Source: Candidatus Tritonobacter lacicola (GTDB lineage Bacteria; Auribacterota; Tritonobacteria; Tritonobacterales; Tritonobacteraceae). From it: a stretch of DNA of 64,000 nucleotides. The notes beneath the pieces are model-generated. The model was not told the origin of the DNA and ran no database searches. It worked only from the letters and a program-made list of their open reading frames with translations. The stretch's first letter is position 1. Each line of letters opens with the position of its first letter. This document shows, piece after piece, positions 6,107-33,367 of the stretch. The translations under genes were made by a program, and so were the position numbers. Location: NCBI GenBank assembly GCA_030765135.1, contig JAVCDC010000080.1, positions 33,336-97,335 on the forward strand, read 5' to 3'.

Positions 6107-6346
6107 AAATGGACCTGATTTTGTACTTATCCATGTGGCTATAGTAATTGGTCGACAGGCACCTCTTATCAGCTGCTTATTAATTATTATTCAACTCCTT
6201 AATCAATAGCAAGGAGACAAGTATGCGGGCTGCAGGGGCTATCGTTTTGGGTGATACCCGCTATGTCTGCGGCGAGTGCTTACTCCGCCTTTGTATTACT
6301 TGAAAACACTCCCCTTTTTACTTAAGGTAATCGAGAGATCAACCTC

Positions 6347-9049
6347 TTGGAAAAGCCCATACAGATGACCTCCCCTTCAGGAGAGAGAGCGTGGTGGAAG
6401 TGGCTGGCGGTCTCCCTCCTCCTTGTCGCCGTTGCGGGCGCCGTCACGGCCCAGGTCTTCTTCGATGGGAAGATGTACTTCGGCCTCGCCGCTGTCCTGT
6501 ACCTGTCGAGCCTGATCCTCTTCGCCGTTGTACTGGCGAAGCCTATCTGGAGAGCGTTTCCAAAGCCGGCGGCGGGCTATCGGTCGGAGAACATCTTCTT
6601 CGATAATCGACGGTTGGAGCCCCAGATTAAACCTCTCTGGGAGATCGTCGGTTTCATTGCCGTCATCGCCATCGGGATATTCTTCCGCTTCTATCAGCTG
6701 GACGCAGTGCCGCCAGGGTTCAATCACGATGCGGCACTGGAAAGCCGGTACGCCATAGAGTTTCTACAAGGGAAGGAAACCCTGAAGCCTTTCTATGTCG
6801 CACCTGGCCGCTTTGGCAACGAGACATTCCAGCCTCTTGTGACCGCCCTCTATATGACTTTCTTGGGTGTTATCCCCCTTGCGTGCAAGCTTTCGTCGGC
6901 GACCTCCGGCCTGGCAGCCCTTATTGTTTTTTACTTTTTGGTGCGGTTCATGTTTGGTAAGAGGATGGCTCTCATATCCGCCTTTTTTATGTCGGTGTGC
7001 GGCTGGCACTTCATCTTCAGCCGTGTCGGCTGGCGCTGCATAGCTGTTCCCCTCTGGGAAATTGTCGCTCTTTTTCTCCTCTTTGCGGCCATTAAGCGCA
7101 GGAAGCTGGCTCTCTTTGCCTTAGCGGGCGCGGCAACAGCCATCAACCTGCTAACCTATAGCGTAAGCCGAACTTTTATCGTAAAGGAACTGGCCATAGC
7201 CGGGTATTTGTGGATTAAGAAGATAATCACCATCAAGTCATATTGGAAACCGGGCGTGCTTTTCCTGGTCGTTTTCACTGTCTGTTCTCTTCCTGTTGTG
7301 CATTACGCAATTAACAACATGGAGGCCTTTCAGGGCCGTGCACGCGCGATCCTCATTACCGGCCGGTTGGGAAGGGAAGGTATTGCACCTCTCCTGGAGA
7401 ACCTGAAGAGGACGGTCCTGAACTTCAACTACCGCGCCGGCGGGAACGATTTTTTCGTGAACGAGCCCATCCTCGATTTCCCCCTCTCCGTATTCTTTGT
7501 CTTCGGCTTTGCCATATGCTGCCTCCTCTTTAACCGGCCCCGCTATGGCATTCTGCTGATATGGTTCCTCATGTCGCTGGTTCCCGGCTTATTGACAGCG
7601 CCCAATGCCAATCGCAATATAGGCGCCCTTCCGCCCGCGATGATCATTGCTGCTATTGCCTGCGATACGGCCATCGCTTCTCTCTGGGGCACGCTTTCGC
7701 GCTTTTGGAGGAGGGCAGGCACAGTCCTGGCCGTTCTTGCCGTTACCATCGGACTGGTCATTACATACTGCAACTACCGGTGGTATATATCTCCGGATAC
7801 CCGGCGGGAACTGTGGGGGGTTTACCCCGAGACGAGGGTGGTGGGGGAATATATGGATACTATCCTTGATGAATACGATGTCTACGTAGCGGATAATTAT
7901 CCCATAGATGCGCTAACCTTCCTGACCTATCGCGGGGGGGACTTTGTCCCCCGTTTTCACCATCTCTGGGAGAGAGGCCACAGGATCCTCGAGAAGGATT
8001 TAGCGCCTCCTTCCGGAAAAGGCGTGGCGTTCATCGCGAAGCCGATACGAAAGAACGAGCCTGTTTTCAGAAGGCTCCTGGCCCGGTACCCGGGATCGCA
8101 GCTCATAGAACTCAAGGAAGTTATTAATCTCAAAGATCCCGATAAGGTCATCGCTAAGGTCGTCCTCATCGGGCCACAGGCCCTGAAGAACAAGGTGCCC
8201 CTTAAGGTAGTGGAAACTTGGGAAGAGGAGCAAAGGAAGCGCGCGCCGCGTATCTTTATAGGCGGAAGGGGAAGCGGACCCGGCCTCTTTGATAACATTA
8301 TGGATCTCACCGTGGATGGGAAGGGCAACATTTACGCCGTTGATATGGTGAACAGGAGGGTTCAGAAATTCGACCCGCGCGGCAAGTATCTTCTCTCATG
8401 GGGGAGGGCAGGGGCGCGGCCGGGAGAGTTCAACGAGCCCAGGGGAATTGCTGTGGATCGCAGAGGCAATGTCTACGTCGTCGACACGTGGAATCACAGG
8501 GTGCAGAAGTTCACTCCGGAAGGGGAGTTTTTAAAAGCGTGGACATCGCCTGGCGGTTTATATGGTCCCCGTGGGATTGCAGTGAAGGGGAAGCGGGTTT
8601 ATGTTGCAGATTCGGGAAATAACCGGATTGAGGTTTTTGACACAAAGGGGAAGCATAAGGTGAGCTGGGGGAGAAGGGGTACCGGTCCGGGAGAGTTTGC
8701 CGAGCCTGTCGGCATAGCCGTTGATGAAAAGGGTTTCGTGTATGTCGTTGATTCCGCTAATAACAGGATCCAGAAGCTGGACAGCAAGGGTGATTTCGTG
8801 GTCTCTTGGAAGGTGGAGGGATGGAATGACAGTCATCTTAAGGAGGCCTATATCGCGTGTGACGGGTCGGGGAATGTCTACATCGCGGATCCACTTTCCG
8901 GGAGCGTCTTTCGATACTCCGGCGAAGGTTTGTTGATCGGGAGGGTCGAGGGGCAACTAAAGGGGCCAACAGGATTGGCCGTGAGGGGTAGGGAGATATA
9001 TATCAGCGAGAGGGGCGCGAACAGGATAAGGAGGGAGAAGCTTGAATAA
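6347..9049 (+). CDS. GT39-like multi-pass glycosyltransferase fused to C-terminal NHL-repeat beta-propeller
   Basis: TTG start (ATG alternative at 6365); multi-TM N-terminus; about six NHL repeats (EPRGIAVDRRGNVYVVDTWNHRVQKFTPEGEFL...). Confidence 0.8.
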   Translation: MEKPIQMTSPSGERAWWKWLAVSLLLVAVAGAVTAQVFFDGKMYFGLAAVLYLSSLILFAVVLAKPIWRAFPKPAAGYRSENIFFDNRRLEPQIKPLWEIVGFIAVIAIGIFFRFYQLDAVPPGFNHDAALESRYAIEFLQGKETLKPFYVAPGRFGNETFQPLVTALYMTFLGVIPLACKLSSATSGLAALIVFYFLVRFMFGKRMALISAFFMSVCGWHFIFSRVGWRCIAVPLWEIVALFLLFAAIKRRKLALFALAGAATAINLLTYSVSRTFIVKELAIAGYLWIKKIITIKSYWKPGVLFLVVFTVCSLPVVHYAINNMEAFQGRARAILITGRLGREGIAPLLENLKRTVLNFNYRAGGNDFFVNEPILDFPLSVFFVFGFAICCLLFNRPRYGILLIWFLMSLVPGLLTAPNANRNIGALPPAMIIAAIACDTAIASLWGTLSRFWRRAGTVLAVLAVTIGLVITYCNYRWYISPDTRRELWGVYPETRVVGEYMDTILDEYDVYVADNYPIDALTFLTYRGGDFVPRFHHLWERGHRILEKDLAPPSGKGVAFIAKPIRKNEPVFRRLLARYPGSQLIELKEVINLKDPDKVIAKVVLIGPQALKNKVPLKVVETWEEEQRKRAPRIFIGGRGSGPGLFDNIMDLTVDGKGNIYAVDMVNRRVQKFDPRGKYLLSWGRAGARPGEFNEPRGIAVDRRGNVYVVDTWNHRVQKFTPEGEFLKAWTSPGGLYGPRGIAVKGKRVYVADSGNNRIEVFDTKGKHKVSWGRRGTGPGEFAEPVGIAVDEKGFVYVVDSANNRIQKLDSKGDFVVSWKVEGWNDSHLKEAYIACDGSGNVYIADPLSGSVFRYSGEGLLIGRVEGQLKGPTGLAVRGREIYISERGANRIRREKLE

Positions 9050-18023: not shown

Positions 18024-21000
18024 ATGGAACAAGCTCGCTTGAAGGAAATAAATCTCGGTATCGATATCGGCTCGGTGAGCGTCAATGTAGCCGTCCTTGC
18101 GCCTGACGGGGATATGGTTGACGAGCGTTATATCCGGCACAGGGGCCGGCCTTTTACCGTCGCCCTGGAGGCCCTCCGGGAGGTGATTTCCCGTTACGGA
18201 GAGGGGGCCGTCCGGCACGTGGCGATGACGGGCTCGGGCGGCCGCAAGGTGGCGGAGGCGCTGTCGGTTCCCTATGTCAACGAGATCGTGGCCCAGGCAA
18301 AGGCGGCCGAGGCGATCCAGCCGGAGGCGAGGACGATCATCGAGATCGGCGGCGAGGACTCCAAGCTGATCAACCTGAAGAGCGAAGACGGCGGGCTGGC
18401 GGTGGAGGATTTCGCGATGAACACGATATGCGCCGCCGGGACCGGATCGTTCCTGGACCAGCAGGCGAGCCGCCTCAACCTCTCCATCGAGGACGAGTTC
18501 GGAAAACTGGCCCTGAAGTCGAAGAACCCCCCGCGCATAGCAGGCCGCTGCTCGGTCTTCGCCAAGACCGATATGATCCACCTCCAGCAGCAGGCCACGC
18601 CGGATTACGACATCGTTGCCGGCCTGTGCTACGCGATGGCGAGAAATTTCAAGAGCAATCTCGGCCGCGGCATGGACTTCGTCAAGCCCGTGGCCTTCCA
18701 CGGCGGCGTCGCGGCAAACATCGGTGTCGTCAAGGCACTCAAGGATGTATTCGACCTGAAAGACGGAGAGCTTATCGTCCCTCACCACCACGCCTCCATG
18801 GGGGCCATAGGTGCCGCCCTCGAAGCCGCAGAGAAGGGTTTCTCCACGGGCGGTTTGTCCATGGAGGGGCTGGAGAGGGCAGGAAGGGAGCTCGCGTCGA
18901 TGAAGGAGATTGATTACCGTCTGGAGCCCCTCTCCTCCGGTGTGGAGGAGGTGAAAGAGAGGCTGTCCACGGGCCGGGCAGTGGCCGGCATGGACGTGTA
19001 CCTGGGAATTGACGTGGGCTCCATCAGCACGAACGTGGTCGCGATAGACGCGGAGGGCGGACTACTGGCGAAAAGCTATCTCATGACGTCCGGGCGTCCC
19101 CTCGATGCGGTTAAGAAGGGGCTGGCCGAGGTTCATGAGAGACTCGGCGTGCAGGTGAACGTGAGAGGGGTGGGGAGCACGGGCTCCGGGCGGTACCTCA
19201 CAGGGGACTTCGTCGGAGCGGACGTGGTGAGGAATGAGATAACCGCCCAGGCGCGGGCGGCGATCGCCATCGACCCGGATGTCGACACGGTCTTCGAGAT
19301 CGGCGGGCAGGACTCCAAATACATAAGCCTGGCCGGCGGCGTCGTGATAGATTTCGAGATGAACCACGCCTGTGCCGCCGGGACGGGATCGTATCTCGAG
19401 GAGCAGGCGGAGAAGCTGGGCATCGACATCAAGGCCGAGTTCGGCGACCTGGCACTGAAAAGCCGCTTTCCGGTAAGGCTGGGAGAGCGCTGCACCGTTT
19501 TCATGGAGTCCGACGTCGTTCACTATCAGCAGGCGGGGGCCTCCATCGACGAGCTGGTGGGAGGCCTCTCCTATTCCATAGTCCGCAATTACCTGAACAG
19601 GGTGGTTGGCAAACGGATGGTGGGCGAGAGGATTTTATTCCAGGGGGGGGTGGCAGCGAACAGAGGCGTGGTCGCCGCCTTCAACAAGGTCGTGGGCAAG
19701 ACCGTTGTTGTTCCCCCTCACCACGAGGTGACGGGCGCCATAGGCGTTGCCCTCCTCGCGAGGGAGCATGCCGGGTCTTCAGCGGGGGATTTCAGGAGCG
19801 GTTTCCGCGGGTTTCAACTCGCCTCCCGGAAGTACGCTCTCAAATCGTTCACCTGCTCCCACTGCCCGAACATGTGCGAGGTGAAAGAGGTTGTCATCGA
19901 GGGCGAGCAGCCCCTGTACTACGGGAGCAGGTGCGACCGCTACAACATAAAAAAGGTGAAGAGGGATAACACCATTCCCGACCTTTTCCTCGAGAGGGAG
20001 GCCATTCTGGAGGGCTATCTAAAGGCCCCCTATAACTACAACGGGATCGACATAGGCATTCCGAGGGCCCTCTTCTTCCATGAATACATGCCTTTCTGGG
20101 CTACGTTCTTTTCCTCCCTGGGCTTCAGGGTCGTGCTGTCCCGTCGAACAAACAAGACCGTGATAAAGAGGGGCGTCGAGTCGGTCCTCTCCGAGACATG
20201 CTTCCCCGTCAAGGCCGCCCACGGCCACGTGATCGATCTCGTGGAGAAGGGGATAAAGCACATATTTATTCCCAGCATTATCACGAGCACCAGGGACGAT
20301 CAAAGACAGGAGAGAAATTTCTTTTGCCCCTATGTCCAGACGATACCCTATCTTGTGAGCGTCGCGCTTCGCGTGGAGCTTTCGGGGAGTACGTTGATAC
20401 GACCGGTCATCTACCTCGACAGGGACAGGGAGGAGATGGTCAGCGCCCTCTTAGGGTGCCTGGAGCCGTACGGGGTGTCCGGGAAGGACGTGGCCGGGGC
20501 CGTGGACATGGCCTGGGACTCGCAGAACGAATTCAACCGGCGGCTGAAGGAGAGGGGACGGGAGGTCCTTGCCGGCTTGCAGTCCGGGGAGAGGGCGTGT
20601 GTTATCGTAAGCAGGGCCTACAACGGCTGCGACCCGGAAATCAACCTTGACCTTCCGGGGAAGCTGCGCGATCTGGGTGTGATGGCAATACCCATGGATT
20701 TTCTCGAGATAGATGCCCGGGGCGATGAGGACCACTGGGACAACATGTTCTGGAAGTACGGCCAGCGGATACTCAAGGCCGCCGGCATCATCAACCGGGA
20801 CGAGCGCATCAACGCCGTCTATCTCTCCAACTTCGGTTGCGGACCTGATTCCTTTCTTACCACCTTCTTCAGGAAGGCGATGGGGGGGAAGCCGTTCCTG
20901 CAGCTGGAGATCGACGAGCACAGCGCCGATGCGGGCATTAGAACACGTTGCGAGGCTTTTCTGGACAGCATGAAGAACGTCGACGGCAGGAAAGCATGGC

Positions 21001-22244
21001 CCTTTTCACCGGCCTCGTTTTTCGTGAAGAAGAGCGTCGATGGACGGATACTGTTTATCCCCCATATGTGCGAGCATGCCCATGGCCTGGCGGCGGCGTT
21101 CAGGACATCCGGCATAGACGCGAGGGTCATGCCGCCTTCCGACGAAGAGAGCCTCGAGCTCGGCAGGAGATACACGGTGGGGAAGGAGTGCTTTCCGGCC
21201 ATCATCACCACCGGCGACATGCTGAGACAGATTTCCTCGCCCGATTTCGACCCTTCGGCCAGCGCGTTCTTCATGCCGTCGGGAACGGGTCCCTGCCGGT
21301 TCGGCCAGTACAATACACTGCACAAAATCATTCTCACCGACCTCGGGTTCGGGGATGTGCCGGTGATGTCTCTGAACCAGGGCAGAAAGTTCTACGAGGA
21401 TTTTAAAGATTTGAAATCGGACCCCAGCAGAAACGCCTGGCACGCTATCCTATCGTCGGACCTCATCACGAAGGCCCTCCACGCGATCAGACCTTACGAG
21501 ACGGAGAAGGGCCTGGCCGACAGGGTGCACGAGGAGGCTATTGCCAGGATCTGCTACGGGATCATGAACGGCAGGACCTTCGCCGCCGTGAGGGAGTGCG
21601 CGAACATGTTCAGGGAGATCCCGACGGATGGCAGGGGCTCAAGGCCCCTGGTCGCCGTGGTCGGGGAGATTTTTGTCAGGCAGCATGTGTTCAGTAACAA
21701 CGATCTCATCCGCCAGCTGGAGGGGCAGGGAGCGGAGGTCGTCCTATCGAGCTTCGCCGAGTGGATCTACTACATCAACTTCACCGGGATGAGGCAGAAC
21801 AGGGAGTTCGGGGACTACCGCCACTATTTCCAGACGCGCGTAAAGGACACGGTGGAGCTTGTTGACGAGATGCGGATGTCCAGGTATTTCCGCGGTCTCT
21901 TCAGCCCCCTCCGCGAGACGAGGCCGCGGAAATACCTGGATCTCAGCAACAGGTACATCCACGACTCGTTCGAGGGAGAGACGACCGTCACGCTGGGCAA
22001 GTCGATCGAGTCTTACCACGAGGGGACCTCCGGCATCGTAAACGTGATGCCTTTTACGTGCATGCCAGGCACCATCGTGAGCGGCATGCTCAAGCAGTTC
22101 CGGGCGGACCACGATTCCATCCCGGTAATATCCATCGCCTACGAGGGGCAAAAAGAGATGGGGGCGGTGACCAGGCTCGAGGCCTTCATGCACCAGGTGC
22201 GCGAGTATCACCGTTCCCGCGAGGGCGCGGGGCGCCGACCTTGA
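18024..22244 (+). CDS. Giant 2-hydroxyacyl-CoA dehydratase activase-like protein (tandem BadF/BcrA ASKHA domains plus dehydratase-related C-terminus)
   Basis: Two ASKHA modules (LGIDIGSVSVNVAV..., LGIDVGSISTNVVAID..., AAGTGSFLDQQA / AAGTGSYLEEQA) followed by CxxCxxC-type linker and IDIGIPRALFFHEYMPFWATFF. Confidence 0.85.
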   Translation: MEQARLKEINLGIDIGSVSVNVAVLAPDGDMVDERYIRHRGRPFTVALEALREVISRYGEGAVRHVAMTGSGGRKVAEALSVPYVNEIVAQAKAAEAIQPEARTIIEIGGEDSKLINLKSEDGGLAVEDFAMNTICAAGTGSFLDQQASRLNLSIEDEFGKLALKSKNPPRIAGRCSVFAKTDMIHLQQQATPDYDIVAGLCYAMARNFKSNLGRGMDFVKPVAFHGGVAANIGVVKALKDVFDLKDGELIVPHHHASMGAIGAALEAAEKGFSTGGLSMEGLERAGRELASMKEIDYRLEPLSSGVEEVKERLSTGRAVAGMDVYLGIDVGSISTNVVAIDAEGGLLAKSYLMTSGRPLDAVKKGLAEVHERLGVQVNVRGVGSTGSGRYLTGDFVGADVVRNEITAQARAAIAIDPDVDTVFEIGGQDSKYISLAGGVVIDFEMNHACAAGTGSYLEEQAEKLGIDIKAEFGDLALKSRFPVRLGERCTVFMESDVVHYQQAGASIDELVGGLSYSIVRNYLNRVVGKRMVGERILFQGGVAANRGVVAAFNKVVGKTVVVPPHHEVTGAIGVALLAREHAGSSAGDFRSGFRGFQLASRKYALKSFTCSHCPNMCEVKEVVIEGEQPLYYGSRCDRYNIKKVKRDNTIPDLFLEREAILEGYLKAPYNYNGIDIGIPRALFFHEYMPFWATFFSSLGFRVVLSRRTNKTVIKRGVESVLSETCFPVKAAHGHVIDLVEKGIKHIFIPSIITSTRDDQRQERNFFCPYVQTIPYLVSVALRVELSGSTLIRPVIYLDRDREEMVSALLGCLEPYGVSGKDVAGAVDMAWDSQNEFNRRLKERGREVLAGLQSGERACVIVSRAYNGCDPEINLDLPGKLRDLGVMAIPMDFLEIDARGDEDHWDNMFWKYGQRILKAAGIINRDERINAVYLSNFGCGPDSFLTTFFRKAMGGKPFLQLEIDEHSADAGIRTRCEAFLDSMKNVDGRKAWPFSPASFFVKKSVDGRILFIPHMCEHAHGLAAAFRTSGIDARVMPPSDEESLELGRRYTVGKECFPAIITTGDMLRQISSPDFDPSASAFFMPSGTGPCRFGQYNTLHKIILTDLGFGDVPVMSLNQGRKFYEDFKDLKSDPSRNAWHAILSSDLITKALHAIRPYETEKGLADRVHEEAIARICYGIMNGRTFAAVRECANMFREIPTDGRGSRPLVAVVGEIFVRQHVFSNNDLIRQLEGQGAEVVLSSFAEWIYYINFTGMRQNREFGDYRHYFQTRVKDTVELVDEMRMSRYFRGLFSPLRETRPRKYLDLSNRYIHDSFEGETTVTLGKSIESYHEGTSGIVNVMPFTCMPGTIVSGMLKQFRADHDSIPVISIAYEGQKEMGAVTRLEAFMHQVREYHRSREGAGRRP

Positions 22245-23469: not shown

Positions 23470-24696
23470 ATGGAATGGGCTAAGAAGATATTGGGCGTAT
23501 TGTTAGTGATTGTAGTGGCGGGAACGGTATGGTCTGAGGAGAAGCCGGCTGTAAAGGCCGGGAACGATCGTGCCGTGGTTGTGAAGGGGAACAACGAGTT
23601 CGCCTTCGACCTCTACGCGAAGCTGCGCGGAAGGGAGGGGAACCTTTTTCTCTCTCCCTTCAGCATCTCGACGGCGCTGGCGATGACATACGCCGGGGCG
23701 CGTGGCGGGACGGAGGCACAGATGGCAAAGGCCCTTCATCTCACGCTGCCGGGTGAAGAGCTGCATTCCGCCTTCGCCGGACTGATACGGGGTCTGGATG
23801 AGGATAAAAAAGGGCGGGGCTACGAGCTCGTCGTCGCCAACGCCCTGTGGGGACAGAAGGGCTACGGTTTTCTCAAGGAATACCTGGATTTAACAAGGTC
23901 CTGTTATGGAGCAGGTCTCCACGAGGTTGATTTCGAGAAGGCCGCGGAGGCCGCGCGGAAGTCCATCAATGCCTGGGTCGAGAAAAAAACCAAAGATAAG
24001 ATCAAGGACCTTATAAAGCCCGGCGTGCTGTCCTCCCTCACGCGGCTTGTCCTGACAAACGCAATCTACTTCAAGGGCCAGTGGGCTTCACGGTTCAAGG
24101 AGGAAGCGACGAAGGACGGGCCGTTCACGCTCTCCTCCGGCAAGAAGGTTACCGTCCCCATGATGAACCAAACGGAGGAGTTCGGTTATATGGAGGACGG
24201 GTATATGCAGGCCCTGGAGCTTCCCTATATCGGTGACAGGTTGTCCATGGTTGTCTTACTGCCGAAGAAGGTAGATGGTATGGCGGTCCTCGAGAAATCT
24301 CTCACGGCGAAAAACCTGTCACAGTGGCTGTCGCGATTGCATAAGCGGAAGGTCGTCGTCGCATTGCCGAGGTTTAAGTTCACCTCGGAGTTCGGCCTGG
24401 CAGATGTACTCAAGTCGATGGGAATGACCGACGCCTTCTCCCTGCCGCCCGCCGACTTCTCTGGAATGGACGGAAAGAAGGACCTCTTTATCTCTGCCGT
24501 TATCCACAAGGCGTTCGTCGATGTGAACGAGGAGGGGACTGAGGCCGCCGCGGCCACCGCTGTTGTGATGAAATTGGAAGCCGCAATGCCGGAGCCGGTC
24601 CCAGTATTCCGGGCCGACCACCCTTTCCTTTTCATCATCCGCGACACAAAGACCGGCAGCATCCTCTTCATGGGACGCATGATTGACCCATCTTGA
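23470..24696 (+). CDS. Secreted serpin (serine protease inhibitor family)
   Basis: NLFLSPFSISTALAMTYAGARGGTEAQM; LVLTNAIYFKGQW; VDVNEEGTEAAAATAVVM hinge; DHPFLFIIRDTKTGSILFMGRM. Confidence 0.95.
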   Translation: MEWAKKILGVLLVIVVAGTVWSEEKPAVKAGNDRAVVVKGNNEFAFDLYAKLRGREGNLFLSPFSISTALAMTYAGARGGTEAQMAKALHLTLPGEELHSAFAGLIRGLDEDKKGRGYELVVANALWGQKGYGFLKEYLDLTRSCYGAGLHEVDFEKAAEAARKSINAWVEKKTKDKIKDLIKPGVLSSLTRLVLTNAIYFKGQWASRFKEEATKDGPFTLSSGKKVTVPMMNQTEEFGYMEDGYMQALELPYIGDRLSMVVLLPKKVDGMAVLEKSLTAKNLSQWLSRLHKRKVVVALPRFKFTSEFGLADVLKSMGMTDAFSLPPADFSGMDGKKDLFISAVIHKAFVDVNEEGTEAAAATAVVMKLEAAMPEPVPVFRADHPFLFIIRDTKTGSILFMGRMIDPS

Positions 24697-24928: not shown

Positions 24929-25591
24929 CTATAGTTTCGAGTAGTCCACGACCTCCACCCCTTTAGGGGCTTTGAACTTGAAGAAGCTGTCCTTGATCGG
25001 CGGGTTGATGGAGATGTTCGTGAACTCGAAGACGGTCGTGTCCTTCGACCTCTCGAACTGCTCGGTCCTGACGGGGACCATTTTTTCACGGTCCAGCCAG
25101 ACGCGTATTTTTTCCAGGACGTTCGCTATCTCCTTGTTCCTGGGGAAGAAGTCCAGGACGAAGGCGCCGCCTTCATCCTCGCTGACCAGGCTGATTGCGA
25201 AGTTTTTCTTGAGCTCCGATGCAGGTACGCCGAATCCTATAAGGAGCGTCGATATCTTGTAGTCCCTGCCCAGGTCAATCTTCTGTATCTGCTTGATGTC
25301 GGGGATGTACGTCCAGGCGACGCCGTCGTTGAGGTATACCTCGTTCGAGTCGGGTGGGGCGTAGTGCCATGCCATCTTCCCGCCTTTTTTATAGTATATC
25401 CTGCCCCTGGATTCCTGCTTATCATCGAAGAGTGAGAAGCGTTTGACCTGTGTGAAGTCCGCCGTGAGGGTCTCTATCTTACCGCCCTTCTCCTCCATCA
25501 GGGCGAGGACCCTGTCCAGCTGATCGCCGTATGAAGGTACGGCAAAGGATATAAGGATCAAGCAGAGGGACTGGAATAAGACCTTTTTCAT
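24929..25591 (-). CDS. lolA: Outer-membrane lipoprotein carrier protein LolA-like
   Basis: Signal peptide; TLTADFTQVKRFSLFDDKQESRGRIYYKKGGKMAWHYAPPDSNEVYLNDGVAWTYIPD. Confidence 0.85.
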   Translation of the reverse strand: MKKVLFQSLCLILISFAVPSYGDQLDRVLALMEEKGGKIETLTADFTQVKRFSLFDDKQESRGRIYYKKGGKMAWHYAPPDSNEVYLNDGVAWTYIPDIKQIQKIDLGRDYKISTLLIGFGVPASELKKNFAISLVSEDEGGAFVLDFFPRNKEIANVLEKIRVWLDREKMVPVRTEQFERSKDTTVFEFTNISINPPIKDSFFKFKAPKGVEVVDYSKL

Positions 25592-25602
25592 AACTTATTA
25601 TA

Positions 25603-26388
25603 TCAGGCCGGCTTTCTCCTGGAAAAGCAGCCTTTTTTCTGAAGAAGCTTGAGAAGGCCCGCCAGGGCGGAAGCCGCCACGATGGCCAGGAGGGCCTTCC
25701 ATCCCGGTTTCCATTCGTAGCCGATCACGGCCAGGATCGCGTACCTGGGCCATCTTCCCACCAGGGAGGCGAAGAAGAATCTCATTTTCGGGTACACGGC
25801 CGAGATGGCGAGCATCCTTATGACGTCTATGGGCAGGGGGAGGAAAGAAGCGACGGCTATTGTGATAAAAGGCGCCTTATTGAACCAGCGTACGCTTCTT
25901 TCGTGCGTCCTTGTTTGCCGGATTTTATCCACGGGCCTGAACTTGAAGGTGTAGGTGAGGATGTGGTAGTCGTGCATGTTGGCTATGGCCGATGCTATGG
26001 CCCCGACGGAGGCGACGAGAAACGTGGCGAAGATGAGCGGGTGGTATGCCTCGGCGAGCATGAGACACGGCGGCGCCGTCGGCAGGGGGCAGAAGGTGGA
26101 TGCCACGCTCATGTAGAGGAAGAAGTAGATCAGGTTGGAAGGGGTTTCCCCGGCGGCCTGGCCGAGAATAAGGAGAACGGCGCCCATGCCGAGCACCAGG
26201 AGGCCGTAAAATATGAACCATTTTTTCAGAGCTTTTACGGCCCTCGATACGTCCGTCCGGTTACAGGAGGGTGTTATCTTTCGGGATTGTGCTTCTGCCG
26301 GGGTGCTAACCGCCTGACTGTTGTTCCCGGCCTCCCTGCTTTCTAGCGTCCGGGTTCCGGAACAACGATAAGACATCCGTTCCATCAT
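25603..26388 (-). CDS. DedA/VTT-domain membrane protein (start uncertain)
   Basis: Multi-TM; APFITIAVASFLPLPIDVIRMLAISAVYPKMRFFFASLVGRWPRYAILAVIGY. Confidence 0.65.
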   Translation of the reverse strand: MMERMSYRCSGTRTLESREAGNNSQAVSTPAEAQSRKITPSCNRTDVSRAVKALKKWFIFYGLLVLGMGAVLLILGQAAGETPSNLIYFFLYMSVASTFCPLPTAPPCLMLAEAYHPLIFATFLVASVGAIASAIANMHDYHILTYTFKFRPVDKIRQTRTHERSVRWFNKAPFITIAVASFLPLPIDVIRMLAISAVYPKMRFFFASLVGRWPRYAILAVIGYEWKPGWKALLAIVAASALAGLLKLLQKKGCFSRRKPA

Positions 26389-27056
26389 CCCTTGATCTTT
26401 CCGTCCAGCATGTGGAGGACGCGGCCCGCCATGCCCGCTATCTTCTTATTGTGCGTTACGATAATGAGTGTGCGTCCGTTCTCCCTGTTCAGCTTCGTGA
26501 GGAGCTCCATGATCCCGCGCGATGTCTTCGAGTCCAGGCTGCCCGTCGGCTCGTCGGCCAGAATGACGGCGGGGTTGCACACGAGGGCCCTTGCTATCGA
26601 TACCCGCTGCTGCTCGCCGACCGAGAGCTCGTTCGGACGCCTGTCCATCTTGTCCTCCAGGCCCACGAGCTGGAGGTATCGGCATATCTCATCCCCGGCG
26701 GCCATTCCGCGAAGCCGTGTCGCTATCCCGAGATTGGCCCGCGCCGTCAGGGTCGGGATGAGGTTGAACTGCTGGAAGACGAAACCGATCGACTTCCTCC
26801 TCAGCCCGGTTAGATCCCGGTCCTTGAGATTTTCAGTAGGTATCCCGTTGATGATTACCCTCCCCGATGTGGGCGTGATGAGGGCCCCCAGCAGGTATAG
26901 AAGGGTCGACTTGCCGCAGCCGGAGGGACCGACGATTGAGACGTGTTCCCCCTCTTCAATTGACAGTGAAATACCCTGAACGGCTTCGACACTGACATTG
27001 CCGGGATGGTAGGTCTTGGCCACGTCCTCGGCTTTAAGGACTGTCTCTTTATTCAT
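26385..27056 (-). CDS. ABC transporter ATP-binding protein (LolD/MacB type)
   Basis: GPSGCGKSTLL Walker A, LSVGEQQRVSIARAL signature, VILADEPTGSLD Walker B. Confidence 0.92.
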   Translation of the reverse strand: MNKETVLKAEDVAKTYHPGNVSVEAVQGISLSIEEGEHVSIVGPSGCGKSTLLYLLGALITPTSGRVIINGIPTENLKDRDLTGLRRKSIGFVFQQFNLIPTLTARANLGIATRLRGMAAGDEICRYLQLVGLEDKMDRRPNELSVGEQQRVSIARALVCNPAVILADEPTGSLDSKTSRGIMELLTKLNRENGRTLIIVTHNKKIAGMAGRVLHMLDGKIKG

Positions 27057-28152
27057 ACCGCAACGCCTCGATTGGATCCAAGAATGATGCCCGGAGAGCG
27101 GGATAGAGCGCGCCGAGAACTCCACCGAGAATTCCCAGCCCACCGGCTATAACGATCCACCCTGTCGATGTCTCTATTGTGAGAAGCGGGTGGGCGAACA
27201 GTATCCATCGCGTTGAGAGGAATGAGAGAAGGTATCCGACGAGTACACCCATGGCGCACAGGATGACCGACTCCAGGACGATGCTTCTCATGATGTAGGA
27301 TCTTGTTGCACCGATGGCCCTCAGGATCCCGATCTCGCGCGTCCTTTCAAGTATTGTGGTATAGAGGGCCAGCAGAATCACCAGGAAGCTTATTATCAAA
27401 GCGGCCGAGATTATGGTCCCTATGAATTCATCGAGATAGTCGATGTTACCCTGGAGTGCCTCCGCGTAGGCGGCGACTTCGGTCGGTCGCAGTCCGGGAT
27501 ATCGACCGGCTATCTCTTCGGCTACCGTGGAGACGACATTTTCGTCCCGGCTCGCGCACTTGATGAAGAAGAGCGAAGCTTTATCTTTCTGCTTCAGGAG
27601 ATCCTGAAGGGCCGGCAGGGGCATGGAGACGCGAGAACCTATTCCCGCCCTGTAGATTCCGCAGATCGTGAACGGCCGCGCCAGGAACGTCACCTCGTCT
27701 CCCACCTTGTAGCCCGTCGCCTTCGCGAGCCGCTCGTCAACCATTACCTCATTGTCGTTCGTCCAGTATCTTCCCTTCTTGAGGGATAGGCCCGCGCCGA
27801 TCCTGTCGAAGCTTTCGAGGTCTATCCCGTAGATGACGTGTATGACGTTGTTTATCGTGGTCGTCCACGTCATGAGGGGCGAGACCCCGGCGACGCCGTC
27901 GATCTCCTCGATCTTTCCGGCGTAGGCGACCGGAAGGTTGCCGCTCCTCAATCCCAGGAAGTAGGAGCTCCCGGCCGGCTGAACAATAATGTCCGCGCCG
28001 ATCCTGACGACCCTCCTCGATGATTCGGATATCACGCCGCTGCAGAGGCCGACGAGGACGAGCAGGAGCGTTATGCCGAGGGCGACCGCGAGTATGCAGA
28101 TGGCGCTTCGCACCTTGCGTCGCTGCAAGTTGGAAATGGCCAGAGAGATCAT
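27049..28152 (-). CDS. ABC transporter permease, FtsX/MacB_PCD type
   Basis: N-terminal TM plus periplasmic domain plus three C-terminal TMs; TTILERTREIGILRAIGATRSYI. Confidence 0.9.
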   Translation of the reverse strand: MISLAISNLQRRKVRSAICILAVALGITLLLVLVGLCSGVISESSRRVVRIGADIIVQPAGSSYFLGLRSGNLPVAYAGKIEEIDGVAGVSPLMTWTTTINNVIHVIYGIDLESFDRIGAGLSLKKGRYWTNDNEVMVDERLAKATGYKVGDEVTFLARPFTICGIYRAGIGSRVSMPLPALQDLLKQKDKASLFFIKCASRDENVVSTVAEEIAGRYPGLRPTEVAAYAEALQGNIDYLDEFIGTIISAALIISFLVILLALYTTILERTREIGILRAIGATRSYIMRSIVLESVILCAMGVLVGYLLSFLSTRWILFAHPLLTIETSTGWIVIAGGLGILGGVLGALYPALRASFLDPIEALRYE

Positions 28153-28949
28153 TTGTTGACCGGCAGGTCACTGAGGGAGAAGGCCCCGGGGGGGACACTG
28201 CCGGCCCTATCGACGGATTTAAGGGATATATCCAGAACTGCCCCGTCCCCGGGCCAGAAGAGGGTTATCTGTGTGGGAGTGGGGGATAGGCCCGGTTCCC
28301 CTTTAGTGTAGTCTTGCATCGTCGCCATCATGATGGGAATACCGCTCCCGTCATAGTGCACGAGGCCCGCGATCCGCAGCGATTTATTGTCTATCCATAT
28401 TTTCTTTTCGAGGTTACAGCCGCTTTCTTCCCGCCCGGCAAGAGATAGTATGTAATACTTCGGCGTGCACTCCAGGAGGATGATTTCGTCGTCTGAAATG
28501 GATGGCGCGAAAAGGGAACCCAGTGCCCCGTCAAGGAGCCTGCGGCAGAGGGCCCCTTCACCGGAGCTCCCCGGCCTGGTGAACTCGCCCGTGGAATATG
28601 TGTACATGAGAAGCTCATCCCCGTCTGCTGCTGCCTCGAATAGAGTCGGTCCCAGGCTCCTGTATCCCTTGACCCGGAGTTTCCGTGAAGGGTCGGCGAT
28701 TATGAGCGCGCGGCAGGACCGGGGCCTGGCATCGGGTCCAGCCCAGTAGGTCAGCATTCCCTTGAGTTTCAGGGGGCGTGCCCCCCCGGCCTTTTCGTTA
28801 ATGACTTGCCGGAGTTCAGATGCGCCCTTCGGCCTGTCGGGGTAGCTCCATCCGCCCGTAACTTCGTGCCTTGCACACCCGCAGATGAGCGAAAAGATGG
28901 CGGCCAGAACAGGCGTAAATCTATTTACTATATTGAACTTGTGGCTCAT
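28149..28949 (-). CDS. Predicted lipoprotein, LolA/LppX-like fold candidate
   Basis: Lipobox CGC; 4-nt overlap with the permease gene; lipoprotein-like beta-rich sequence. Confidence 0.5.
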   Translation of the reverse strand: MSHKFNIVNRFTPVLAAIFSLICGCARHEVTGGWSYPDRPKGASELRQVINEKAGGARPLKLKGMLTYWAGPDARPRSCRALIIADPSRKLRVKGYRSLGPTLFEAAADGDELLMYTYSTGEFTRPGSSGEGALCRRLLDGALGSLFAPSISDDEIILLECTPKYYILSLAGREESGCNLEKKIWIDNKSLRIAGLVHYDGSGIPIMMATMQDYTKGEPGLSPTPTQITLFWPGDGAVLDISLKSVDRAGSVPPGAFSLSDLPVNK

Positions 28950-29077: not shown

Positions 29078-29086
29078 ATTTACAGA

Positions 29087-29194
29087 GGTCCCGGTAGGGA
29101 TCCCGCCGGAGGGTCTAAGATCCGGCAGTTATTGACGGAAAGTCCCACCGGGACCGGGGTAGGGTGCGTCCCGAAAGCATTCGGGACGGCTACC
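29087..29194. other. Structured intergenic element: nested hairpins plus a 37-bp hairpin repeat (second copy at 33286..33322)
   Basis: GGTCCCGGT/ACCGGGACC, GCCGGA/TCCGGC, then GTCCCGAAAGCATTCGGGAC; 37-mer differs at one base from the 33286 copy. Confidence 0.7.
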
Positions 29195-29271
29195 ATATAG
29201 TTACGAAGCTAGGGAATTTGATATATTTTAATAAATTTGCGAGCGTAGTGAGCTAATTTATCGAGAGGGAG

Positions 29272-30885
29272 GTGCAAGAAGTGGGCAACCAGCAGCTTAT
29301 CAACGGTGTCGATACAAAGGTGTCTTACAGGACGCTCTCAGGAGGCGAGATTACCCCCTTAAAGAAGGGGCTTCCCAAGACGATACAGTCCATATGCCCG
29401 GAGTGCATGAACGTTATAGACGCCGAGCTATACCCTGAAGACGGTAAGGTCATGATGAGGAAGTCGTGCCCGAGTCACGGCTCCTGGACGGATATCTACT
29501 GGGGCGATGTCGATCTTTATCTACGGGCCGAGAAGTGGTATTTTCACGATGGAAAAGGCCTCTCTAATCCCCAGACGGAGAGCACGGGGAACTGCCCCTT
29601 CGAGTGCGGCCTGTGCAATATCCACACGAGCCACACGGGGCTGGGAAACATCGATCTCACCAACAGGTGCAACCTCACATGCCCGATATGTTTCGCCAAC
29701 GCGAACGTCACGAAGTATGTCTATGAGCCCACGCTTGACCAGGTCCGGGATATGCTTATGGCCTACCGCCGTTGCCTTCCCGTCCCCGGCAGGATTATCC
29801 AGTTCTCGGGAGGCGAGCCGACTCTATCGCCCATCTTCCTCGACTCCCTGAGTCTCGCGCGGGAGCTTGGCTTTACCCATATACAGGTAGCAAGCAACGG
29901 GTTGAAGTTTGCCGACGAGGGATTTGCCCACGCCGCGGCGGAGGCGGGCCTTCACACGATCTACCTCCAGTTCGACGGTTTAAGCGATGATATCTATAAG
30001 GTTACACGTGGAAGAGCCGTCCTGGACGAGAAGCTCAGGGCCATAGAGAACATACGCCGGGCCGGTATGAAGCTCGTCTTCGTAGTCACGGTCGTCAAGG
30101 GCCTGAACGACCGGCACGTCGGCGAGATACTGAAGTTCGCGATCGAAAACGTCGACGTTATCGCGGGCATAAGTTTCCAGCCCGTCTGCTTCACGGGAAG
30201 GATATCCCGGGAGGAGAGGATGGCGAAGAGGATCACCTTGCCGGATGTCATGAAGGGCCTCTGCGAGCAGACGGGGATAACGAGGCCGACGGATTTCTAT
30301 CCCGTCTGCTGCTCGGTCCCCTTCTCGAAGATGTTCGGCGCCATCAGGGGCGAGGCCAACATCGAGTTCACGTGCCACCCGCACTGCACGTTATGCACGT
30401 ATCTCGTCGTCGACCCCCACGGCAGGGCACACTGCTTCAGCAGGTTCCTCGATATGGATGACTTCTTCCACGCCCTATACAGGCTCGCCGATAAGCTGAA
30501 GAAGTCCAGGCTCAAATCCCTGGCCAAGGTGAAGACCTTCTACGCCCTGAAAAAATTCTGGCACCAGGAGAGGGCGCCCGAGGGGCTGACCTTCGAGAAG
30601 TTCGCCCACACGCTCTCGGGGATAGTGGACAAGAGCGTGGGCCGGGGTGAGGGTGAGAAGAAGACGTACAAGACGCTCATGGTGGGCGGCATGCACTTCA
30701 TGGACGCCTACAACTACGATCTCGACCGTATCAAGAGATGCGTGATACATTTCGCGACGCCCGAGGGAAAGCTCATATCCTTCTGCTCGTACAACTCGGG
30801 ACCCACCTACAGGACGGCGACGGAAAGGCGTTTCTCCGTCCCCCTGGATGAGTGGAGGAAGAAACAGGGAGAGGCTGGCGAATAA
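29272..30885 (+). CDS. Radical SAM protein, tetraether/membrane-spanning lipid synthase (Tes, MJ0619-like) family candidate
   Basis: CPECMNVIDAEL / CPSHGSWTDIYWGD metal-binding N-terminus, GNCPFECGLCNIHTSHT, radical SAM CNLTCPICFAN, downstream Cys-rich FTCHPHCTLCTYL; TTG or GTG start nearby. Confidence 0.8.
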   Translation: MQEVGNQQLINGVDTKVSYRTLSGGEITPLKKGLPKTIQSICPECMNVIDAELYPEDGKVMMRKSCPSHGSWTDIYWGDVDLYLRAEKWYFHDGKGLSNPQTESTGNCPFECGLCNIHTSHTGLGNIDLTNRCNLTCPICFANANVTKYVYEPTLDQVRDMLMAYRRCLPVPGRIIQFSGGEPTLSPIFLDSLSLARELGFTHIQVASNGLKFADEGFAHAAAEAGLHTIYLQFDGLSDDIYKVTRGRAVLDEKLRAIENIRRAGMKLVFVVTVVKGLNDRHVGEILKFAIENVDVIAGISFQPVCFTGRISREERMAKRITLPDVMKGLCEQTGITRPTDFYPVCCSVPFSKMFGAIRGEANIEFTCHPHCTLCTYLVVDPHGRAHCFSRFLDMDDFFHALYRLADKLKKSRLKSLAKVKTFYALKKFWHQERAPEGLTFEKFAHTLSGIVDKSVGRGEGEKKTYKTLMVGGMHFMDAYNYDLDRIKRCVIHFATPEGKLISFCSYNSGPTYRTATERRFSVPLDEWRKKQGEAGE

Positions 30886-30893
30886 AGAGAAGC

Positions 30894-30973
30894 AACCACT
30901 GAAAACACTGAGTACACTGAGGAGAATAAATACCTCCGTAAAGTTTCAGTGCTTTCAGTGTCTTCAGTGGTTT
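30894..30973. repeat. Inverted repeat with 9-nt periodic arms (cactgagta type)
   Basis: aaccactgaaaacactgagtacactgagg ... tttcagtgctttcagtgtcttcagtggttt. Confidence 0.8.
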
Positions 30974-30999
30974 ACCTTCGCTACGTAAGGTACGTTGAC

Positions 31000-32016
31000 G
31001 TGTCCAAGGCACTTTCCGCGACGAGGAAGAAGCTTAAGCTGGTTTCCAGCTTTGTCAGGGGGCGCCCTATCTGGTGCACCTGGCAGGTCACCTACCGGTG
31101 TCTCTTCCGCTGCAGGATCTGCGACTACTGGAAAAATCAGCCCGCGGCCGGGTCGGAGCTTTCGCTGGAGGAAATAGCACGGGGCTCTGAGAATATCTCA
31201 AGGCTCGGCTCGTTTGTTATATCGATAGGCGGGGGCGAGCCCTTCCTGAGAGATGACCTTCCGGACATCATAAAAGCTCTTTCTCTGCACCACCTTCCCC
31301 TGGTCACGACGAACGGTTATCTCATTACAAGGTCACTGGCCCGTGAGGTCTTCCGGTCGGGCCTCTGGGGCGTCAGCGTCTCCTTGGATTACTGCGACCC
31401 GGACAGGCACGATGCCCAGAGGGGAGTGAAGGGGGCGTTCGAGAGGGCGCTGAACGCGATCAAAATTTTCTCGGAGGAGAGGCAAAGCCCCCTCCAGAGG
31501 GTGAACCTCATGGCCGTCCTTAAGGACGACAACCTGGGCGAAATGGAAGGGCTCATCCGCCTGGCGGAGAAACACGGCGCTTATTTCATGGTCCAGCCTT
31601 ACTGCGACATAAAGAGCGGAAAGGACGTATACAGGCCGGAGGGGAAGGTTAGCGCCCGTCTTCTCGAACTCAGGAAGAAGCACAAGAATTTTCTATCCAA
31701 CCCGTTGTTCCTCAGCAGGTTCGATGCCGCGCTCGATGGCGGCGTCCCCGGCTGTGTTGCAGGGAAGGCGTTTTTTAATATAGATAATTACGGCAATGTC
31801 GCAATGTGTGTCGAGGCGCTGGATAAGCCCGTTGCCAACATCCTGAAGAACACACCGGAAGAGATAATGGCCGGCTTGAAGACGGCATATAAGGAAAACA
31901 GCTGTAGGGCTTGCTGGTACAACTGCCGGGGAGAGGTCGAGTCCCTTTATTCGCTGCGCGGCTTCATCGCGGCCTTACCCACAATCTTCGCCTCCAGCGG
32001 CACCCCCTCCGAGTAA
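31000..32016 (+). CDS. Radical SAM protein with SPASM-like C-terminal cysteines
   Basis: WQVTYRCLFRCRICDYW (CxxxCxxC), IGGGEPFLRDDL; C-terminal CVAG...MCVEAL...CRACWYNCRGE; GTG start chosen inside the ORF because the upstream part is repeat-derived. Confidence 0.85.
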   Translation: MSKALSATRKKLKLVSSFVRGRPIWCTWQVTYRCLFRCRICDYWKNQPAAGSELSLEEIARGSENISRLGSFVISIGGGEPFLRDDLPDIIKALSLHHLPLVTTNGYLITRSLAREVFRSGLWGVSVSLDYCDPDRHDAQRGVKGAFERALNAIKIFSEERQSPLQRVNLMAVLKDDNLGEMEGLIRLAEKHGAYFMVQPYCDIKSGKDVYRPEGKVSARLLELRKKHKNFLSNPLFLSRFDAALDGGVPGCVAGKAFFNIDNYGNVAMCVEALDKPVANILKNTPEEIMAGLKTAYKENSCRACWYNCRGEVESLYSLRGFIAALPTIFASSGTPSE

Positions 32017-32048
32017 GGGTGTACGCGCTCTATTCATTTGTCCTTTGA

Positions 32049-32108
32049 TTCGTACTCGTAATCGTAATCGATTGTAGGGCGCAGGGGATTACGAGTAAGA
32101 GTAAGAGG
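32049..32108. repeat. Palindromic 6-nt-periodic element (second copy type of 17541)
   Basis: cgtactcgtaatcgtaatcgatt ... ggattacgagtaagagtaagag. Confidence 0.75.
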
Positions 32109-32159
32109 GGGCAGTTTTCATTCCACCCCGGTCAGATACACCGCAAGAAGCGCTGTTTC

Positions 32160-32906
32160 TCAGGCCTGCAGTGGGATGAGCAGGGGGATGAGTATTCCCA
32201 GGGCGATGTAGATGTCGTACTGCCAGCAGTAGCGCGGGAACTCCCAGAATAAAAGATTGCCTATGATGGGCGGCTTGTAGAGTTCGGTGCCGGGCCTCTC
32301 AAGCTTATTCTTCGTGTAAAGGATCCTGTGTATGGCTGTAACGTTGGCGAATATCGCCAGCTCCCACATGACTGACGGGATCCTGTTGAAGAGGCCGGCC
32401 ATAATGATCATGAAGGTCCTCTCGGGCCTCTCCCAGAAGCCGACCGCGCAGTCAATCCCGAATTTTTCCGCCCTGGCCCTGGCATAGCTGGTGAGGATGC
32501 TGCCGGCCAGGGCGACGAAAGCCAGGACCATATAGAACTCGCTGCCGATCCGGGAGAAATGGATGATTATACCGGTGAAGAGCGCGATATCCGCGTACCT
32601 GTCCATTGTCGAGTCGAGGAAGGAGCCGAATTTCGTCACCCTGTTGAGGACTCTGGCAACCGTGCCGTCCAGGATGTCCATGAAGCCGTCCAATATGATG
32701 AAATAAGCGGCCAGCCTGTAACGTCCGAGGGCGAAGCTTATCCCGGCCATGATGCAGAAGACGGTCCCCATGCAGGTGAGGAGATTGGGAGTCGCGCCGA
32801 TCCCGGCGAGGGTCCTTCCCAGCCAGAGGCGGAACCTGTTTATGATGCGCCGGATGAATTCGGTGTAGGTCATCATGATTGAGCTTGCGTTGGCTAAAGG
32901 TACCAC
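32160..32906 (-). CDS. CDP-alcohol phosphatidyltransferase family protein
   Basis: DGTVARVLNRVTKFGSFLDSTMDRYAD fits DGx2ARx8Gx3Dx3D; multi-TM. Confidence 0.92.
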   Translation of the reverse strand: MVPLANASSIMMTYTEFIRRIINRFRLWLGRTLAGIGATPNLLTCMGTVFCIMAGISFALGRYRLAAYFIILDGFMDILDGTVARVLNRVTKFGSFLDSTMDRYADIALFTGIIIHFSRIGSEFYMVLAFVALAGSILTSYARARAEKFGIDCAVGFWERPERTFMIIMAGLFNRIPSVMWELAIFANVTAIHRILYTKNKLERPGTELYKPPIIGNLLFWEFPRYCWQYDIYIALGILIPLLIPLQA

Positions 32907-33285: not shown

Positions 33286-33322
33286 GGTAGGGTGCGCCCC
33301 GAAAGCATTCGGGACGGCTACC
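33286..33322. repeat. 37-bp hairpin repeat (second copy of 29158..29194)
   Basis: ggtagggtgcgccccgaaagcattcgggacggctacc. Confidence 0.85.
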
Positions 33323-33367
33323 GTATAACTGAAAGGATAACTTGGTAAGGGAGATCCTGGCTGCACA

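Follow-up and report, generated by a model that had tools for sequence, protein, structure and literature searches.

The window analysed here is a stretch of 64,000 nucleotides from the genome of the uncultured bacterium Candidatus Tritonobacter lacicola (3.2 Mb in 148 contigs, 94% complete, 1.6% contamination). It contains tes, a gene for a tetraether lipid synthase (29272..30885, + strand), and a gene on the same strand at 18024..22244 whose 1406 aa product resembles the enzymes PlsA and Ger. The listed start of tes is the GTG at 29272. Another GTG lies 9 bases downstream in the same frame, at 29281, with the Shine-Dalgarno-like sequence GGGAGGTG just 5' of it, and this context suggests that 29281 is more likely the true start. 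The original prediction, made from the letters of the window, had proposed a locus for membrane-spanning lipids at 29272-32906, composed of a Tes-like radical S-adenosylmethionine (SAM) protein, a neighbouring radical SAM protein (30949-32016, +) and a convergent CDP-alcohol phosphatidyltransferase (32160-32906, -). These genes are all present. The conserved cluster reaches beyond the proposed limits to 18024-22244, so that the most telling partner of tes, the PlsA/Ger-like gene, had been missed.

To assign the 29272 protein to a family, we compared it with profile models and known structures. The NCBI equivalog model for Tes, NF045702, matched at 556.4 bits (E 4.9e-167, profile positions 2-485 of 486), well over its curated cut-off of 450 bits, and the archaeal Tes MJ0619 (7tol) matched across 506 residues (437 bits, E 6e-130). 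The AlphaFold model of the protein (mean pLDDT 88) was aligned by Foldseek to 7TOM/7TOL over its full length, with TM-scores of 0.86/0.93 and 40% identity; the next-best fold was MoaA, at 0.35 of the query. Score and fold together rule out other radical SAM clades (MoaA, TrsS and the SPASM maturases). A PHROGs search returned weak radical SAM matches only. The two nearest Tes paralogues in the genome scored ~203 and ~188 bits and covered only the first 300 positions of NF045702. Tandem Tes/TrsS-like radical SAM paralogues with this restricted coverage, two in number, lie on contig 108 of the same genome (L019:3566-5350 and 5629-7161); this contig is rich in other radical SAM genes, of which the genome has ~69 in total. 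We are thus nearly certain that the 29272 protein belongs to the Tes family, as originally predicted. What makes the locus informative is the setting in which a known enzyme family occurs, not a new kind of enzyme.

Residue conservation was read from an alignment of 91 Tes sequences, with ligands as named in PMC9433317. The rubredoxin-like iron site is kept in full (C42 and C45 in CPEC, C66 and H69 in CPSHGSW), as is the N-terminal auxiliary [4Fe-4S] site in CPFECGLCNIH (C108, C112, C115 and H118), where conservation points to H118 as the counterpart of MJ0619 His83. The radical SAM CX3CX2C motif is CNLTCPIC (C133, C137, C140). The residues that contact SAM in MJ0619 (F106, G145, R210, Q268 and R275) are retained as F141, G181, R246, Q303 and R310, and the labile Met439 of MJ0619 is retained as M474. 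C372, C490 and C505 align with MJ0619 C338, C455 and C470 at positions that hold Cys in 89 to 91 of the 91 rows, and by this conservation they are likely the Cys ligands of the C-terminal [4Fe-4S] cluster. The three iron-sulphur sites and the rubredoxin-like site that had been proposed as a check on the family assignment are therefore all represented, the last three Cys by inference. Each motif named in the original prediction (CPEC, CPSHGSW, the CxxxCxxC core and CHPHCTLC) is present in the protein. The attribution of CHPHCTLC to the general Tes layout holds for its second Cys alone: this residue, C372, occupies a position that is Cys in 91/91 rows (C338 in MJ0619), while C375 is Cys in 10 of the 91 rows, is nearly restricted to the host class and lies outside that layout.

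The product of the gene at 18024-22244 has two BcrAD_BadFG activation domains (PF01869) plus DUF2229 (PF09989), and is the sole such protein in the genome. This two-activation-domain form is described in section 18 of PMC13274423 as that of Ger from Thermotogota and Desulfatibacillum, which has been validated as an alkyl-ether former. A PlsA/Ger-like gene also lies beside Tes, on the same strand, in Acidobacteriota (L030, L033), Glassbacteria (L042) and eight Planctomycetota (L069, L070, L073, L080, L083, L090, L092, L097), and Pfam searches on four of these homologues (L030, L033, L042 and L070) revealed the same domains as in the window protein. In a tally made after the linkage had been noticed, it was found at 11 of 56 bacterial Tes loci and at 5 of the 24 loci that are flanked on each side by 4.5 kb or more, compared to a chance expectation of ~0.7% (two-copy gene, 3.5 Mb genome). 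The two families also co-occur irrespective of position. A PlsA/Ger-like protein is encoded in 31 of 35 Tes-bearing bacterial genomes compared to 0 of 8 archaeal Tes genomes. Within the host phylum it is present in 7/7 Tes-positive and 6/37 Tes-negative genomes, and in other phyla 4 of 14 Tes-negative bacteria have one (the Tes-positive G057 was left out). Fisher tests on the co-occurrence gave p values of ~4e-5 and ~8e-5, which are uncorrected for shared ancestry and serve as a guide only. We regard the product of the gene at 18024-22244 as a probable ester-to-ether reductase of the Tes cluster.

The remaining genes of the cluster lie between these two and directly downstream of tes. A full-length serpin (23470-24696, 432 bits) and a protein without known identity separate the PlsA-like gene from a gene for a LolA-like periplasmic lipid or lipoprotein carrier (24929..25591, -; PF03548, 65.7 bits). 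Then follow, all on the reverse strand, a VTT-domain membrane protein of the DedA/SNARE-associated type (25603..26388; PF09335, 40.6 bits), an ABC transporter ATPase (26385..27143; PF00005, 124.7 bits), a MacB/LolC-type ABC permease (27049..28152; PF02687 and PF12704) and a putative lipoprotein (28149..28949). The listed start of the ATPase overlaps the next gene, and its true start is probably downstream. The putative lipoprotein has a possible lipobox, LICGC, and no Pfam or NCBIfam match. These tightly packed genes are divergent from tes, with the lipoprotein gene as the first of the operon. Downstream of tes, a gap of 63 bp precedes a gene on the same strand for a second radical SAM protein, which we call rSAM2 (355 aa, Cys-rich C-terminal tail; PF04055, 81 bits), and the two are probably on one transcript. 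The convergent CDP-alcohol phosphatidyltransferase (PF01066, 68.5 bits) closes the cluster. A folded inverted-repeat element lies 5' of tes at 29085-29200 (z -3.2), with 33286-33327 as a further site of the repeat in the window. The element was ruled out as a riboswitch, having no Rfam match and being a dispersed genomic repeat of MITE-like or REP-like (miniature inverted-repeat transposable element or repetitive extragenic palindromic) type, with ~10 long copies and some 20 fragments.

Conservation of the neighbourhood in related genomes had been set beforehand as a test, and the order Tes - rSAM2 - CDP-alcohol transferase was found to recur in five relatives of the class: G003, G001 (contig 54), G002, G004 and G006. 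The whole cluster is kept in G003, which belongs to another family of the class and carries on one contig the PlsA-like, LolA, VTT, ABC ATPase and ABC permease genes, a weak lipoprotein homologue, Tes, rSAM2 and the CDP-alcohol transferase; parts of it are kept in five further genomes. The PlsA-like gene and the LolA/VTT/ABC side accompany Tes in the same gene order also in G001 (contig 60) and G005, and a weak homologue of the lipoprotein stands at the same place in G005 as in G003. Since the PlsA-like and LolA genes adjoin directly in G003, the serpin looks inserted in the window. A LolA gene also lies directly 3' of Tes in two unrelated bacteria, a member of Candidatus Eisenbacteria (L026:7527-8288) and an unclassified bacterium (L062:7277-8278), a hint that the system may include lipid transport.

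Tes was detected in 7/7 genomes of the host class and in 0/37 other genomes of the phylum. In a quick maximum-likelihood tree, the Tes of the host class formed a single clade (SH-aLRT 100) next to two planctomycete sequences (93); it fell within the bacterial part of the tree, and the archaeal sequences made up one separate clade. The tree was built on the best 80 database matches, and we therefore make no claim on the deep branching order. Some relatives have imperfect copies: the gene of G006 contains an in-frame TAG (contig 63), that of G005 is split into two frames (contig 66), and G001 has two different copies (contigs 54 and 60). These may reflect paralogy, decay, or binning or assembly error, and they suggest that some bins are imperfect.

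rSAM2 had no named NCBIfam family above cut-off. It is 55-58% identical in the five class relatives in which it adjoins Tes, and its model (pLDDT 72) was nearest to the folds of SPASM/twitch peptide maturases. Gms, the glycerol monoalkyl glycerol tetraether synthase, is defined by a length of >420 aa, a six-helix N-terminal domain and a SPASM domain; rSAM2, with 355 aa and no SPASM Pfam match, was ruled out as Gms, and its model has only two N-terminal helices, at low confidence. In six of the Planctomycetota (L069, L073, L080, L083, L092 and L097) and in a member of Terriglobia (L027), Tes is followed, immediately or after a short interval, by a radical SAM/SPASM protein of ~500 aa with an N-terminal extension. 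The planctomycete set may thus be Ger - Tes - Gms-like, its layout being likened to archaeal Gms by description. The CDP-alcohol transferase, one of 6 in the genome, contains the motif D-x2-D-G-x2-A-R-x8-G-x3-D-x3-D (DILDGTVARVLNRVTKFGSFLDSTMD). Its nearest NCBIfam models, archaetidylinositol-phosphate synthase (154.4 bits, cut-off 180) and phosphatidylinositol-phosphate synthase (127.9 bits, cut-off 170), both stayed under their curated cut-offs, and inositol-phosphate synthase (PF07994) was found in 0/7 class genomes. An inositol head group is therefore unsupported. The search for geranylgeranylglyceryl phosphate synthase (GGGPS, PF01884) gave a partial match alone, of 55 residues and 25.7 bits, which nominally exceeds the Pfam cut-off of 23.9 but is far from full length. 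Without a convincing GGGPS, the genome is unlikely to support isoprenoid glycerol ethers, and fatty-acid-derived chains fit better. An archaeal-lipid hybrid membrane was ruled out on the same ground, glycerol-1-phosphate dehydrogenase and digeranylgeranylglyceryl phosphate synthase not having been searched for. The substrate is likely to be bacterial acyl or alkyl lipids; ester phospholipids of E. coli were bound in the active site of MJ0619 (PMC9433317).

Tes family membership, conserved cofactor sites, gene linkage and co-occurrence were all observed. On this basis we consider it likely that the window contains a Ger and Tes locus for ether-linked, tail-coupled, membrane-spanning bacterial lipids of the branched glycerol dialkyl glycerol tetraether (brGDGT) type. 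From it we infer the catalytic steps in the host, their order and their substrate and, with low confidence, the roles of the accessory genes. By reduction, the PlsA/Ger-like protein would turn the ester-linked fatty acyl chains of phospholipids into alkyl chains with ether linkage. Next, Tes would take hydrogen from two chain ends by means of two SAM-derived 5'-deoxyadenosyl radicals; the first chain would be held on the C-terminal [4Fe-4S] cluster until a C-C bond joins the chains. The CDP-alcohol transferase probably sets the head group, rSAM2 may further modify the lipid, and the ABC/LolA genes divergent from tes may serve in the transport of lipids or lipoproteins. A more far-reaching version, in which the locus would be a self-contained tetraether pathway with its own delivery (ethers from Ger, coupling by Tes, a head group from the transferase and passage to the outer membrane through the LolA/ABC/lipoprotein operon), seems doubtful to us. 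As for the lipid locus originally predicted, the Tes assignment and the conserved neighbours bear it out in part, and tail-coupled lipids are still the inferred part of it.

Several points weigh against this reading. According to a 2025 survey (PMC11868695), bacterial Tes activity is unconfirmed, and tail coupling has been demonstrated for no bacterial Tes. MJ0619 Tyr459, which is invariant among archaeal Tes, is replaced by Phe494 in the window protein, and MJ0619 Ser271 by Cys306, at a variable position. The PlsA-like gene and Tes are on different contigs in G002, G004 and G006, most Bryobacterales Tes loci have no PlsA-like gene nearby, and the association counts carry no correction for shared ancestry. 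Moreover, Ger and PlsA are not separable from sequence, as stated in PMC13274423, and vinyl ethers may therefore be what the partner makes. Phe494 is no strong argument against coupling, because the Y459F mutant of MJ0619 retained robust activity (PMC9433317).

Four other explanations were weighed against the proposed Ger and Tes route. In the one that survives best, although we think it improbable, Tes would couple ester-linked acyl chains to give tetraesters of the iso-diabolic-acid type, with the PlsA/Ger-like protein making plasmalogens or acting later or independently and no diether-then-Tes route. This would agree with the inseparability of Ger and PlsA, with the ester phospholipids bound by MJ0619 and with the non-selectivity of another enzyme, Mss, between ester and ether bonds that is reported in PMC13274423; however, the two-activation-domain architecture fits alkyl-ether formers, and the repeated Tes-PlsA/Ger linkage suggests a shared product. 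Somewhat less probable is an assembly of Tes and its neighbours by chance or for general membrane housekeeping, with no single pathway behind the cluster. Against it stand the gene order shared with G003, from a different family of the class, and the Tes-PlsA/Ger linkage in three additional phyla, where chance would give ~0.7% per genome, even though the PlsA-like gene is unlinked in three relatives, two genes intervene in the window, and the LolA, ABC and VTT families are commonly found in housekeeping. A different lipid reaction of a Tes-fold enzyme, without intermolecular coupling, is a little less likely again: MJ0619 also makes macrocyclic archaeol (PMC9433317), and such intramolecular ring closure, or another modification of alkyl chains, would be compatible with the replacement of Tyr459 by Phe and of Ser271 by Cys in the host class, but the C-terminal cluster, on which the substrate radical is held, appears to have retained all its ligands and the full-length fold is that of MJ0619. 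Finally, it is very unlikely that Tes acts on phytanyl chains as in archaea to give isoprenoid tetraethers or a hybrid membrane, since, for all that phytanyl chains are the best-known Tes substrate and that the nearest model of the transferase is archaetidylinositol-phosphate synthase, the GGGPS match is partial, the host class lies outside the archaeal clade and the PlsA/Ger-like family is absent from the 8 archaeal Tes genomes searched.

The Ger and Tes locus can be placed beside several known systems. The window Tes shares full-length homology, fold, metal-site ligands and SAM contacts with the archaeal enzyme (Tes or GDGT-MAS; MJ0619, 7TOL/7TOM), and differs from it in its bacterial host without a convincing GGGPS, in Phe494 and Cys306, in the extra Cys375 and in its PlsA/Ger-like partner gene. 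Zeng et al. 2022 (PMC8941075) described 456 Tes homologues from bacteria, for which they suggested a part in brGDGT synthesis. The homologues from Acidobacteriota, Planctomycetota and others in PMC8941075 and PMC11868695 belong to the same family and are 44-58% identical to the window Tes, whose host represents a different class, where Tes stands in a conserved cluster of its own that contains rSAM2 and the CDP-alcohol transferase among others. For Solibacter usitatus, Halamka et al. 2022 (PMC10087280) propose the action of PlsAR, then Tes, then GrsA/B. The same two key enzyme families, for ether formation and tail coupling, are involved there; that route was proposed from lipids and homologues, whereas the evidence here is gene linkage and co-occurrence. 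The partner resembles Ger (Thermotogota, Desulfatibacillum alkenivorans) and PlsA/PlsR in combining two BcrAD_BadFG domains with DUF2229 in a single long polypeptide, a likeness of domain make-up; Ger is of 159 kDa (PMC11150832), compared to 1406 aa for the window protein. The known bacterial route to tail coupling, as given in PMC13274423, uses Mss and Ger, Mss being a radical SAM enzyme with a catalytic architecture reported to be the same as that of Tes. Relative to Mss as described there, the window protein differs in exceeding the Tes equivalog cut-off. We found no description of Tes-Ger gene linkage in the parts available of PMC8941075, PMC10087280, PMC11868695 and PMC13274423, and claim no priority for it. 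Bacterial Tes homologues and the PlsAR-then-Tes route had already been published as hypotheses, and what the present analysis contributes is the evidence from linkage and co-occurrence.

Branched tetraethers are widely used as proxies of past temperature and pH, and both their makers and their biosynthesis are unsettled. The recurrence of Tes-PlsA/Ger linkage across phyla supports, on independent genomic grounds, the ether-then-couple route put forward for Solibacter. It also names a two-gene set, Tes plus the PlsA/Ger-like protein, that can be directly expressed and tested. Together, these sequence-based results suggest that the locus is a good candidate for bacterial tetraether lipid production.

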